Shown here: piece after piece, positions 6,428 through 59,618 of the stretch
Layout of the letters: each line of letters opens with the position of its first letter
Position numbering within the stretch: position 1 is the first letter of the stretch
Source: Flavihumibacter profundi
GTDB lineage: Bacteria > Bacteroidota > Bacteroidia > Chitinophagales > Chitinophagaceae
Length of the DNA stretch: 64,000 bases
Reading direction: 5' to 3'
NCBI RefSeq assembly: GCF_020076305.1
Contig: NZ_JAIQXE010000001.1
Span: 1,922,001-1,986,000 of the forward strand
Position numbers and translations under genes: made by a program
The notes under the pieces: generated by a model
What the model saw: the letters and a program-made list of their open reading frames with translations, nothing else
What the model was told of the DNA's origin: nothing
Database searches by the model: none

Positions 6428-7006
6428 TCATAACTTGTACACCACATTGTTGAACTGATTCATGGTAGTGGCCAGTCCGGCGGCTACAAATTGTTCAATC
6501 AGTTCTACGCATTTCATGCCCTTAAACACAACCAGGGGCCATTCTTCAGCGGTCCATTTGCCCAGTACGTAGTCGGCCTGGCGGCCTTTGGGGTAATTAT
6601 TCCCAATCCCAAACCGCAATTTGGGGTATTCGGTTGTGCCTAAATGTTCCTGGATGCTCCTAAGGCCGTTATGTCCGCCGTCGCTTCCCGATCCCCGGAC
6701 CCGCAGCCTTTCCAGCGGCAGGGCCAGTTCATCTACTACAACCAGTACATTTTCAAGGGGTATATTTTCCTTATCCTTCCAGTATTTAACAGACCGGCCG
6801 CTCAGGTTCATGTAGGTAGTTGGTTTTATACAAACCAATTGCTTCCCCCGCACCTTTATTTCTGCAACATCTGCCAGGCGGTCGGCCCTGAACCGGCCCT
6901 CGTGCTTTTTGACCAGTTCATCAACAATATCAAACCCGATATTATGTCGGGTATGGGCATACTCTTCGCCGATATTGCCCAGTCCAACAATCAGAAATTT
7001 ACTCAT
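6428..7006 (-). CDS. pth: Peptidyl-tRNA hydrolase
   Basis: A 192-residue Pth, the cytosolic esterase that frees tRNA from prematurely released peptidyl-tRNA. The active-site elements are visible: GLGNIGEEY near residue 8, the catalytic histidine in TRHNIGF, the tRNA-binding loop TTYMNLSG, and the aspartate and glycine-rich segment VDELALPLERLRVRGSG followed by GGHNGLRSI. Length is normal for the family. It lies downstream of rplY and prs on the same strand, a common Bacteroidota arrangement, but a terminator and two repeat arrays separate it from rplY. A weak TATCTTTC element at 7031-7038 may give it a separate promoter. Confidence 0.95.
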   Translation of the reverse strand: MSKFLIVGLGNIGEEYAHTRHNIGFDIVDELVKKHEGRFRADRLADVAEIKVRGKQLVCIKPTTYMNLSGRSVKYWKDKENIPLENVLVVVDELALPLERLRVRGSGSDGGHNGLRSIQEHLGTTEYPKLRFGIGNNYPKGRQADYVLGKWTAEEWPLVVFKGMKCVELIEQFVAAGLATTMNQFNNVVYKL

Positions 7007-7047
7007 TCCGGAGAGTTATGCGATTTGGGGGAAAGATAAGGCGATTT

Positions 7048-7075
7048 GGTGAGCAGTGAACAGTAAGTAGTAAGC
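7048..7075 (+). repeat. NGTRARY heptad array, four units (locus 1, left arm)
   Basis: Four contiguous 7-base units, all fitting NGTRARY in plus-strand orientation: 7048-7054, 7055-7061, 7062-7068 and 7069-7075. Each has TGA or TAA at its positions 3-5. It is inverted relative to the array at 7125-7159, with a terminator hairpin between them. Confidence 0.8.
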
Positions 7076-7081
7076 CGCAAA

Positions 7082-7113
7082 CAAAAAAATGCACCCTTCA
7101 ACAGGATGCATTT
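7082..7113 (-). terminator. Intrinsic terminator of rplY
   Basis: Arms 7087-7096 and 7104-7113 pair with one mismatch around a seven-base loop. On the minus strand the stem runs into a T-run formed by 7082-7089. It lies 50 bases after the rplY stop, just past the heptad array. Confidence 0.75.
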
Positions 7114-7124
7114 AACTAGGTTAT

Positions 7125-7159
7125 GCTTACCGCTCACGACTTACTGTTTACGGCTTACT
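7125..7159 (-). repeat. NGTRARY heptad array, five units (locus 1, right arm)
   Basis: Five contiguous units in minus-strand (rplY-sense) orientation: 7153-7159, 7146-7152, 7139-7145, 7132-7138 and 7125-7131, reading AGTAAGC, CGTAAAC and so on. It begins four bases after the rplY stop codon and ends before the terminator, so it would be in the 3' untranslated region of the rplY mRNA. Confidence 0.8.
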
Positions 7160-7163
7160 TCAC

Positions 7164-7745
7164 TTATTTCTTACCCTTATCAGCAGCTTCTTCCTGCTTC
7201 AATTGGCGGGTCATTACGATAGAAGCGATAGGAATACGGGGTGAGTTCAAAATCTCCATATTCTCTGCCTTTACATCTTCTACGCGGATGTTCTCGTTCA
7301 GGTCAAGGTTAGTAATATCAAGTTCAATACTTGCTTTCAGGTATTTCGGCAGGGTTTTCACTTTCAATGACTTGATCTTGGTTACCAGCTTTCCGCCTTC
7401 TTTTACTCCTTTTGGCGCACCTGTAAGGTGCAGGGGTAAAGTGGCGATCACTTTTTTGGTTTCAACCAGTTCAAGCAGGTCCACGTGGGTCAGTAAATCT
7501 GAAACTTTGTCAAATTGCAGGTCTTTGAGGATGCAGCGATACGTTTTTCCATCAATTTTCACTTCTGCTAACTGAAATTCCGGGGTGTACACCAGAGCCT
7601 TAAAAGCCTTGGCTGGGGCAACGAAATTAATTTCGGTTGCGCCTCCATAAATTACACCTGGCACTTTTTCCTCAGAGCGAAGTTGGCGGGTGGCTTTCTT
7701 CCCGGTTTCGGTCCTGAGTTGTCCTTCGATTGTAATTGTCTTCAT
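7164..7745 (-). CDS. rplY: 50S ribosomal protein L25 (Ctc/TL5 type)
   Basis: A 193-residue L25 of the long Ctc form. The 5S rRNA-binding N-domain begins ITIEGQLRTETGKKATRQLR and includes VPGVIYGG. The C-terminal TL5-type beta domain holds DLLELVETKKVIATLPLHLTG and IRVEDVKAENMEIL, and the tail is lysine-rich. It stabilises the central protuberance of the large subunit. It starts 21 bases after the prs stop on the same strand, so prs-rplY is a likely operon. Its transcript appears to end at the hairpin at 7082-7113 after a heptad array. Confidence 0.95.
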   Translation of the reverse strand: MKTITIEGQLRTETGKKATRQLRSEEKVPGVIYGGATEINFVAPAKAFKALVYTPEFQLAEVKIDGKTYRCILKDLQFDKVSDLLTHVDLLELVETKKVIATLPLHLTGAPKGVKEGGKLVTKIKSLKVKTLPKYLKASIELDITNLDLNENIRVEDVKAENMEILNSPRIPIASIVMTRQLKQEEAADKGKK

Positions 7746-21427: not shown

Positions 21428-21455
21428 CGTAAGCAGTGAACGGTAAGTCGTAAAT
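21428..21455 (+). repeat. NGTRARY heptad array, four units (locus 2)
   Basis: Four contiguous units at 21428-21434, 21435-21441, 21442-21448 and 21449-21455, starting CGTAAGC and ending CGTAAAT, in the sense orientation of queE. It lies immediately after the queE stop. No clear terminator follows before the next gene. Confidence 0.8.
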
Positions 21456-44588: not shown

Positions 44589-44616
44589 ATTCACGATTTA
44601 CTATTCACGATTCACA
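44589..44616 (-). repeat. NGTRARY heptad array, four units (locus 3)
   Basis: Four contiguous units in minus-strand orientation, 44610-44616, 44603-44609, 44596-44602 and 44589-44595, with the all-T/A version RGTRAAT. It starts seven bases after the stop of the trans-sulfuration gene and 12 bases before the GNAT ATG. It is inverted relative to both genes and has no partner arm. Confidence 0.7.
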
Positions 44617-53632: not shown

Positions 53633-53660
53633 GGTGAGCGATAAACGGTAAGTCGTAAGC
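53633..53660 (+). repeat. NGTRARY heptad array, four units (locus 4, left arm)
   Basis: Units at 53633-53639, 53640-53646, 53647-53653 and 53654-53660, one of them with A instead of G at the second position (GATAAAC). Plus-strand orientation, inverted relative to 53676-53696. It covers the -33 region of the tex promoter. Confidence 0.8.
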
Positions 53661-53675
53661 GGATTACCCCTTTTT

Positions 53676-53696
53676 GCTCACCGCTTACTGCTCACC
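53676..53696 (-). repeat. NGTRARY heptad array, three units, providing the hydrolase stop codon
   Basis: Units at 53690-53696, 53683-53689 and 53676-53682 on the minus strand (GGTGAGC, AGTAAGC, GGTGAGC). The TAA stop of the 53685-54332 hydrolase is in the second unit, and its last residues Gly-Glu-Gln are encoded by the first. Confidence 0.8.
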
Positions 53697-58527: not shown

Positions 58528-59595
58528 ATGAAAAAGTACAGCGCCGGCGTATTATTCGGTGAAGAACTCGAAGCCTTATATAAGGACGCCAAAGCCAACA
58601 AATTTGCCCTTCCAGCGGTAAATACCATCGGTACAGATTCTATTAATGCCGTCCTGGAAACCGCTGCGAAAGTTAATTCCCCTGTAATTGTGCAATTCTC
58701 CAACGGAGGTGCCCAGTTTATGGCAGGGAAAGGAATGCCTAACGACCAGATGCAGGCGAATATTTCCGGTGCCATTTCCGGTGCACTGCATATCCATAAT
58801 GTTGCCAGGTACTATGGTGTTCCCGTAGTGCTGCACACCGACCATGCATCCCACAAATGGCTTCCCTGGATTACTGCCTTAATTGATGCCGGTGAAGCTT
58901 ATTTTGCAGAAAAAGGCACACCTCTTTTCAGTTCACATATGCTTGACCTTTCTGAAGAAAGCCTGGAAGAGAATATCCAGACTTCGGTACAATATTTCAA
59001 AAGGATGAAGCCCCTGGGAATGGGCATTGAAATTGAACTCGGAGTAACCGGCGGTGAAGAGGATGGCGTTGATAACAGTGGTGTTGAAAACGACAAACTG
59101 TACACTCAGCCACAACATGTTGCCTATGCTTATGAAGAGTTGGGTAAAGTCGGCAATTTATTTACAGTTGCCGCCGCATTCGGAAACGTGCATGGTGTGT
59201 ATAGTCCGGGTAATGTTGAACTTCGTCCCGAAATCCTGCACAATAGCCAGATTTACATCCAGGAACAATACAAAACAGGTGAAAAGCCCGTGTATTTTGT
59301 ATTCCATGGAGGAAGCGGTTCAGCAAAAGAACAAATTGCTGAAGCTTTGGGCTATGGTGTAATCAAAATGAATATCGATACCGATATGCAATGGGCATTC
59401 TGGGAAGGTGTTCTGGGTTACTACAAAAAGAACGAGGCTTACCTGCAAGGCCAGCTCGGTAACCCTGAAGGCCCGAATAAGCCCAATAAAAAATACTATG
59501 ATCCACGTGCCTGGTTGCGCAAAGGCCAGGATACATTTGTAGCCCGTTTGGAAGAAGCCTTCCGGGACCTGAATTGTATTAACAGGAATGCGTAA
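58528..59595 (+). CDS. fbaA: Fructose-bisphosphate aldolase, class II
   Basis: A 355-residue class II (zinc) aldolase. Conserved elements are FALPAVNTIGTDSINAVLE, the zinc-site VVLHTDHASHKWLPW, GIEIELGVTGGEEDGVDN, and the second zinc region with FHGGSGSAKEQ and NIDTDMQWAFW. It splits fructose 1,6-bisphosphate in glycolysis and gluconeogenesis. The TAA stop is part of the first unit of a heptad array that begins at 59591, and a terminator follows at 59637-59664. A class I aldolase gene comes next. Confidence 0.95.
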   Translation: MKKYSAGVLFGEELEALYKDAKANKFALPAVNTIGTDSINAVLETAAKVNSPVIVQFSNGGAQFMAGKGMPNDQMQANISGAISGALHIHNVARYYGVPVVLHTDHASHKWLPWITALIDAGEAYFAEKGTPLFSSHMLDLSEESLEENIQTSVQYFKRMKPLGMGIEIELGVTGGEEDGVDNSGVENDKLYTQPQHVAYAYEELGKVGNLFTVAAAFGNVHGVYSPGNVELRPEILHNSQIYIQEQYKTGEKPVYFVFHGGSGSAKEQIAEALGYGVIKMNIDTDMQWAFWEGVLGYYKKNEAYLQGQLGNPEGPNKPNKKYYDPRAWLRKGQDTFVARLEEAFRDLNCINRNA

Positions 59596-59618
59596 GCGGT
59601 AAATCGTAAATCGTGAGA
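59591..59618 (+). repeat. NGTRARY heptad array, four units, providing the fbaA stop codon
   Basis: Units 59591-59597, 59598-59604, 59605-59611 and 59612-59618 (the last ends in A). The fbaA stop TAA is at 59593-59595 in the first unit. It lies between the coding region and the terminator, in the fbaA sense orientation. Confidence 0.8.

Follow-up and report, generated by a model that had tools for sequence, protein, structure and literature searches.

Polar NGTRARY heptad arrays at gene borders of Flavihumibacter resemble the heptamer repeats of Xanthomonas and Nostoc

Heptamer tandem repeats in intergenic spacers are known from cyanobacteria, where the STRR sequences have a unit different from the NGTRARY heptad considered here. 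The GGGAATC repeats of Xanthomonas and the GGGGA(C/T)T repeats of Nostoc lie at gene borders and have been read through the G-quadruplexes proposed for them (Rehm et al., 2015, PMC4692102), and TAACTGA direct repeats were reported from Beggiatoaceae, Cyanobacteria and some Bacteroidetes (MacGregor, 2015, PMC4679880). The NGTRARY arrays of Flavihumibacter are of the same kind as the Xanthomonas and Nostoc repeats, which are the closest described. In both cases heterogeneous heptamer units form dispersed, mostly intergenic arrays with a mode of four units, and sites are conserved although array length and sequence differ among species; convergent pairs are shared with the Xanthomonas repeats. 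The strand rule is also the same, and according to PMC4692102 it covers the Nostoc repeats too: they lie up to 50 bp after stops in sense or before starts in antisense orientation, and NGTRARY likewise reads on the sense strand after a stop and on the antisense strand before a start. The differences are that the NGTRARY core contains stop codons, unlike the units of Xanthomonas and Nostoc, and that several unit types occur within one bacterial family. The TAACTGA repeats resemble the NGTRARY arrays as intergenic heptamer arrays with forward-strand stops and a sporadic distribution. However, according to PMC4679880, they have one fixed unit, lie in Beggiatoaceae mostly just before starts in forward orientation, and include one indirect repeat against 169 direct sets, unlike the head-to-head pairs of NGTRARY arrays. 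An earlier note on this DNA had known of no described family with this unit. This holds for the unit itself, since no paper on the NGTRARY unit or on heptads of Chitinophagaceae was found in the open-licence literature; repeats of the same kind had nevertheless been described as a family (PMC4692102).

The window, that is the whole stretch of DNA analysed, comprises 64,000 nt of a Flavihumibacter genome (G000). The seven arrays at five loci counted previously were recovered, six of them with at least three strict units and the seventh with one off-consensus unit. Their non-random character was borne out by simulation, as the 30 windows simulated per Markov order (1, 2, 3 and 5) contained none. 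The window had no Rfam match at gathering scores. Between the genes for ribosomal protein L25 (rplY, 7164..7745, minus strand, Pfam PF01386 and PF14693) and peptidyl-tRNA hydrolase (pth, 6428..7006, minus strand, Pfam PF01195), the order described earlier was found: directly after the L25 stop come five strict units on the sense strand (7125..7159, minus strand), followed by an intrinsic-terminator-like hairpin of 11 pairs with a T tail (7113 to 7087, minus strand) and four inverted strict units (7048..7075, plus strand), which lie upstream of the pth start, antisense to pth, and read away from it. An imperfect fifth unit (CGCAAAC, 7076-7082, plus strand) extends the pth-side array to 7082, and 7048-7082 and 7125-7159 form a head-to-head pair with the hairpin in its loop. 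TGA or TAA at positions 3-5, claimed for every unit of this locus, is present in all strict units but not in the imperfect one. Of the other arrays, one of four units (21428..21455, plus strand) lies on the sense strand 2 nt past a stop, and another (44589..44616, minus strand) occupies a spacer of 45 nt and is antisense to a plus-strand gene that starts 11 nt further on; a plus-strand stop lies 6 nt ahead of it. A second pair consists of a left arm of four units, one of them off consensus (GATAAAC; 53633..53660, plus strand), and a right arm of three units (53676..53696, minus strand). The last array (59591..59618, plus strand) is made of three strict units (59591-59611) and an imperfect one, and its first TAA also terminates the upstream gene, so that the arrays are nearly, but not entirely, intergenic.

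Searching the window's own genome with the NGTRARY regular expression, the check suggested in the earlier note, gave 239 overlapping three-unit and 138 four-unit matches, the difference being 101 in-phase runs of at least three units; match positions cover the first 100 places. The reversed pattern gave 31 and 15 matches (difference 16), a control that is not free of true arrays because, by inspection, (GTGAATG)n fits it too. The anatomy of the arrays was examined in 464 kb containing 56 arrays, namely the window and 20 stretches chosen because they bear arrays, and for this reason array densities rest on whole-genome counts only. Gene borders were those of our own crude ORF caller, not of an annotation. 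Periodicity was determined with a transition-tolerant scan in place of a stricter one, which missed the window arrays because their units are degenerate. Period-7 runs numbered 46 in the array-chosen G000 spacers, compared with 0.2 in shuffles, and 57 in 737 spacers of 80 named relatives, compared with 0 in one shuffle each. In the same 737 spacers, the counts for other periods were 10 vs 3 in shuffles (period 8), 6 vs 1 (period 10) and 5 vs 1 (period 11).

Selection of runs independently of the motif led to the same unit, with 56 of 59 period-7 runs from G000 fitting NGTRARY (fit of at least 0.75). Variation of the units is confined to fixed positions: among the interior units of G000, to which these counts were restricted (n=195), G2 was found in 194, T3 in 189 (G in 6), R4, A5 and R6 in all 195 and Y7 in 191, while position 1 was free. 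Strict unit numbers in the 56 arrays peaked at four (three units in 9 arrays, four in 27, five in 11 and more in 9), with a detection floor of three units. Within an array, adjacent units resembled each other to a degree that none of 1000 permutations reached. Such likeness and the dominance of period 7 would be expected from ordinary replication slippage at neutral heptanucleotide repeats, the process proposed for long simple sequence repeats by Mrazek and colleagues (as cited in PMC4679880 and PMC4692102). Slippage alone, however, does not yield the same degenerate unit at many loci, nor polarity and head-to-head pairs, and we regard it as a distinctly improbable explanation. Unit preference differed between genomes. 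In the sampled stretches of G000, GTGAAT (109), GTAAGC (50) and GTGAGC (35) prevailed among 294 units, and in those of the sister genome G013, GTGAAC (20) and GTAAAC (14) among 47; GTRAGC is thus favoured in the former and GTRAAC in the latter. GTGAAT arrays are common in both, and hence this unit is not exclusive to one genome. The arrays at L062 (9530-9613) and L055 (17977-18039) have mostly GTGAGC/GTAAGC units on the gene-proximal side and GTGAAT units on the loop side, as if they were layers of different age.

The arrays are closely tied to gene ends. No more than 10 nt separated 39 of the 56 G000 arrays from a gene end (20.3 expected with random placement), and just one array was centred deeper than 60 nt within an ORF, although ORF-free DNA made up only 6.8% of the sample. 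The nearest gene end was a start codon for 17 of the 56. Outward reading from the nearest gene end was seen in 45 arrays; the 11 that violate this rule mostly lie in very short spacers or are far arms of pairs. All pairs defined by the motif were head-to-head (16/16 in G000 and 4/4 in G013), which together with the genome-wide matches upholds the dispersed, inverted arrangement first noticed in the window. A motif-free scan, which takes period 7 or 8 and the sign of G minus C as polarity, found 37 of 38 pairs head-to-head (G000 14/14, G013 5/5, G034 and G017 together 7/7, named relatives 11/12) and no pairs in the stretches of G005, G007, G008 and G012. The G-rich strand thus points out of the gene towards the spacer. 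Since the head-to-head arrangement was present whether the flanking genes were convergent (8/8), divergent (2/2) or co-directional (27/28), polarity seems independent of transcription. In total, 125 of 156 arms in five sets read outward and 31 inward, 20 of the latter being among the 65 arms of named relatives. Arrays after stops had G>C on the sense strand in 28/30 cases in the relatives, 26/34 in G000, 12/13 in G013 and 16/17 in G034 and G017, and no comparable skew was seen at 543 array-free stops of the relatives (224 G>C, 278 G<C). Depletion between divergent genes was not significant (5/46 spacers vs 23/96, p=0.075), and the rarity in such spacers reported in PMC4692102 is therefore only a trend in our data.

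One of the two readings proposed originally was an all-frame translational stop downstream of genes. All sense frames are indeed stopped by 25/34 after-stop arrays in G000, 7/13 in G013, 14/17 in G034 and G017 and 12/30 in named relatives, compared with 21%, 8%, 24% and 22% of the respective shuffles, an excess due in part to the overlap of arrays with the natural stop. However, in the 17 arrays nearest a start the GTRA core lies on the antisense strand and stops have no evident use there, and units lacking a sense-strand stop (AGGAAGC, AGGGAGC, AGTCGGG and AGCTGCA) occur in the same architecture, as do the stop-free GGGAATC and GGGGATT of Xanthomonas and Nostoc. Stops in all sense frames were not kept across orthologues and relatives, as the 12/30 in the named relatives illustrates. 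The purine at position 4, viewed in the earlier note as what preserves TAA or TGA, is invariant in the 195 interior units of the own genome but gives way to C in the L25-pth spacers of relatives (GTCAGAC, GTCAAAA), and G at position 3 (AGGAAGC) was found in orthologous spacers other than L25-pth. We reject a stop function, which is barely credible, since units that have no stop maintain the same architecture; the stop codons look like a side effect of the GTRA core and not its purpose. Three-tetrad G-quadruplexes fare no better, in that none of the 56 arrays has four GGG runs and 14 have four GG runs. The border architecture known from Xanthomonas and Nostoc is thus present here with units free of GGG tracts and with a diversity of unit types inside one family, and the direction of transcription seems to have no bearing on it. 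Neither stop codons nor three-tetrad quadruplexes are therefore likely to explain such repeats in general. The pattern instead suggests that some process of amplification or recognition deposits polar heptads along gene borders in phyla that are only distantly related.

Paired arms raised the possibility that a hairpin is what selection maintains, either an RNA terminator or insulator or a DNA cruciform, with the arms pairing around the spacer centre. Predicted folds are compatible with this: in 19 of 20 pairs the fold surpassed that of mononucleotide shuffles, with z from -5.0 to -14.4 (-0.5 in the remaining pair), and at the L25 locus the arms enclose the terminator-like hairpin, which is nested in the predicted fold of 7040-7166 (minus strand; z -7.3 against dinucleotide shuffles). 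An arm-swap test also leaned towards pairing, native arms scoring better than cross-species arms at 4 of 5 loci with one tie, but was not significant (p=0.125), and with the first scoring no locus had both arms above threshold. Against selection for a hairpin, unit order was not matched between the arms beyond permutation (best register p=0.21, 20 pairs), and mismatches were of the G-U type and the A-C type 14 times each when read on the plus strand without regard to gene direction. Moreover, many arrays are single and unpaired, two pairs lie between divergent genes, and a perfect-stem T-tailed hairpin was present in the loop of only 4 of 16 pairs, by a strict test that misses the L25 hairpin. 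Among these few pairs no significant sign of compensatory or ordered pairing between arms was obtained. The arms of a pair did share unit type in G000 (0.838 vs 0.744, p=0.0013, 16 pairs), a similarity not seen in the 4 pairs of G013 (p=1.0). Given that unit type but not order is shared, the hairpin seems to be a by-product that follows from two arms of one polarity and is not itself selected, and a selected structure would be quite unlikely. That one arm arose from the other by fold-back copying was rejected as well; such copying predicts matched unit order, and the gene-proximal and loop-proximal registers gave p=0.07 and p=0.44, respectively, besides the 0.21 of the best register (20 pairs).

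We then compared relatives. Three-unit NGTRARY matches were present in 27 of 59 near genomes, the own genome included. Loads were heavy in G000 (239), G013 (144), G017 (312) and G034 (226) and lighter in G012 (43, with 35 for the reversed control), G021 (38) and G014 (28). The 14 other genomes of the same genus had 0 to 5 matches in 11 cases and 0 or 1 in 9. Four-unit matches occurred in 52 of 296 drawn Bacteroidota genomes, and only G000 and G034 exceeded 30 matches. This patchy distribution belongs to the unit, not to period-7 runs. In G034 and G017, the stretches held only 0 and 1 motif arrays, yet 17 after-stop arrays of period 7 or 8. The L25-pth spacer of 13 same-genus genomes contained a period-7 or -8 run in 9, which in G001 is the terminator stem itself; units included CGTGAGA, GGTGAAA, AGTCAAA and octads GAGTGAAT. 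No such runs were found in this spacer in G002, G007 and G010, and that of G013 has kept two units, below threshold. Spacers of the named relatives (737 spacers, 80 loci) held AGCTGCA, AGTCGGG and GATGCTA among other unit types.

Between G000 and G013, sites mostly persist while units change. Runs were found in both genomes at 14 of 68 orthologous spacers, in one only at 5 and 2 and in neither at 47; the shared site at L055 (7810-8549), which is counted in the 14, is by eye an ordinary conserved leader. Both arms of the L055 pair at 6684-6750 consist mostly of NGTRARC in G000 and of AGKRAGC in G013, and at L048 (9300-9399) heptads at one site correspond to octads at its orthologue. The comparison of the two genomes, in which sites mostly stay and units change, thereby provides a testable system. 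A separate case is the G013 spacer (L181) orthologous to L055 17988-18158, which by eye contains an inverted pair of 11-base units of the TGCCAACCATG type where the window's genome has a heptad pair.

We favour, at somewhat less than even odds (roughly 0.47), a repeat that spreads by amplification in trans, lengthens locally and is tolerated only at spacer edges. Copies of the variant active in a genome would reach new as well as existing sites in trans and overwrite older units, a step that we infer from shared units only; local duplication of units would afterwards lengthen the arrays. Purifying selection would clear arrays from coding sequence, with the consequence that they survive at spacer edges, often abutting or supplying a stop codon. 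The GTRA core would account for the stop codons and arms of the same polarity for the hairpin, neither being a selected function. Several findings count against copying in trans: no agent of copying was found, GTGAAT is shared with G013, the arm similarity is absent there (4 pairs), and there are the 11 nearest-edge exceptions in 56, the 31 inward arms in 156 and the shared site that is an ordinary leader. In addition, the fixed-position degeneracy resembles a recognised motif more than drift, and for this reason a recognised motif is the main rival. Each heptad would then be bound by a putative protein with affinity for DNA or RNA; tandem units would provide avidity and their polarity a direction, the arrays would mark gene borders, and the unit would drift with its binder. 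The near-invariant G2 and A5, the purine and pyrimidine classes at positions 4, 6 and 7, the mode of four units (27/56 strict), the polarity independent of transcription and the sites kept between two species all agree with recognition. On the other hand, the motif would have had to change jointly at many loci between G000 and G013, orthologous sites differ in having a single arm or a pair, no binder is known, and no more than one match occurs in 9 of the 14 other genomes of the genus. Recognition is on balance an unlikely account. A more specific proposal adds a writer that acts in trans, possibly a reverse transcriptase or a templated polymerase extending 3' ends, from which DNA ends in spacers would receive a G-rich heptad particular to the lineage; head-to-head polarity would reflect fused telomere-like ends, the unit would switch with the template, and the Xanthomonas, Nostoc and Chitinophagaceae repeats would stem from a single class of such writers. 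The terminator-like hairpins between arms at some loci, such as L25, speak against such a writer, which we consider very improbable.

REP and BIME elements, which are associated with RAYT transposases, are similar to the NGTRARY arrays in being dispersed, extragenic and paired in inverted orientation with a species-specific consensus; REPs are not known to be heptad tandems. The REP-like nature suggested for the arrays therefore stands as regards dispersal and inverted pairing but not as regards the transposase, as neither G000 nor its sister G013 has a match to PF01797 (Y1 transposase). A RAYT-driven REP is thereby rejected for G000 and the array-rich G013. PF01797 matches were found in 36 of the 59 genomes searched, among them the array-rich G034 with 4 and G017 with 1 just over the cut-off.

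Other Bacteroidota have abundant heptad arrays of a different unit: the reversed pattern gave 368 matches in G176, 259 in G168, 186 in G191 and 122 in G156, genomes in which the true pattern gave none. In G007, a same-genus genome without NGTRARY matches, a spacer contains an octad run of CACTAAGA/CACTAAGG/CGCTAAG (L076, 13340-13368). Finally, two long spacers of Foetidibacter luteolus (L105, 6438-8042) carry several inverted period-7 runs of the GGTGAGT/GGTGAAT and GAACAAG types.
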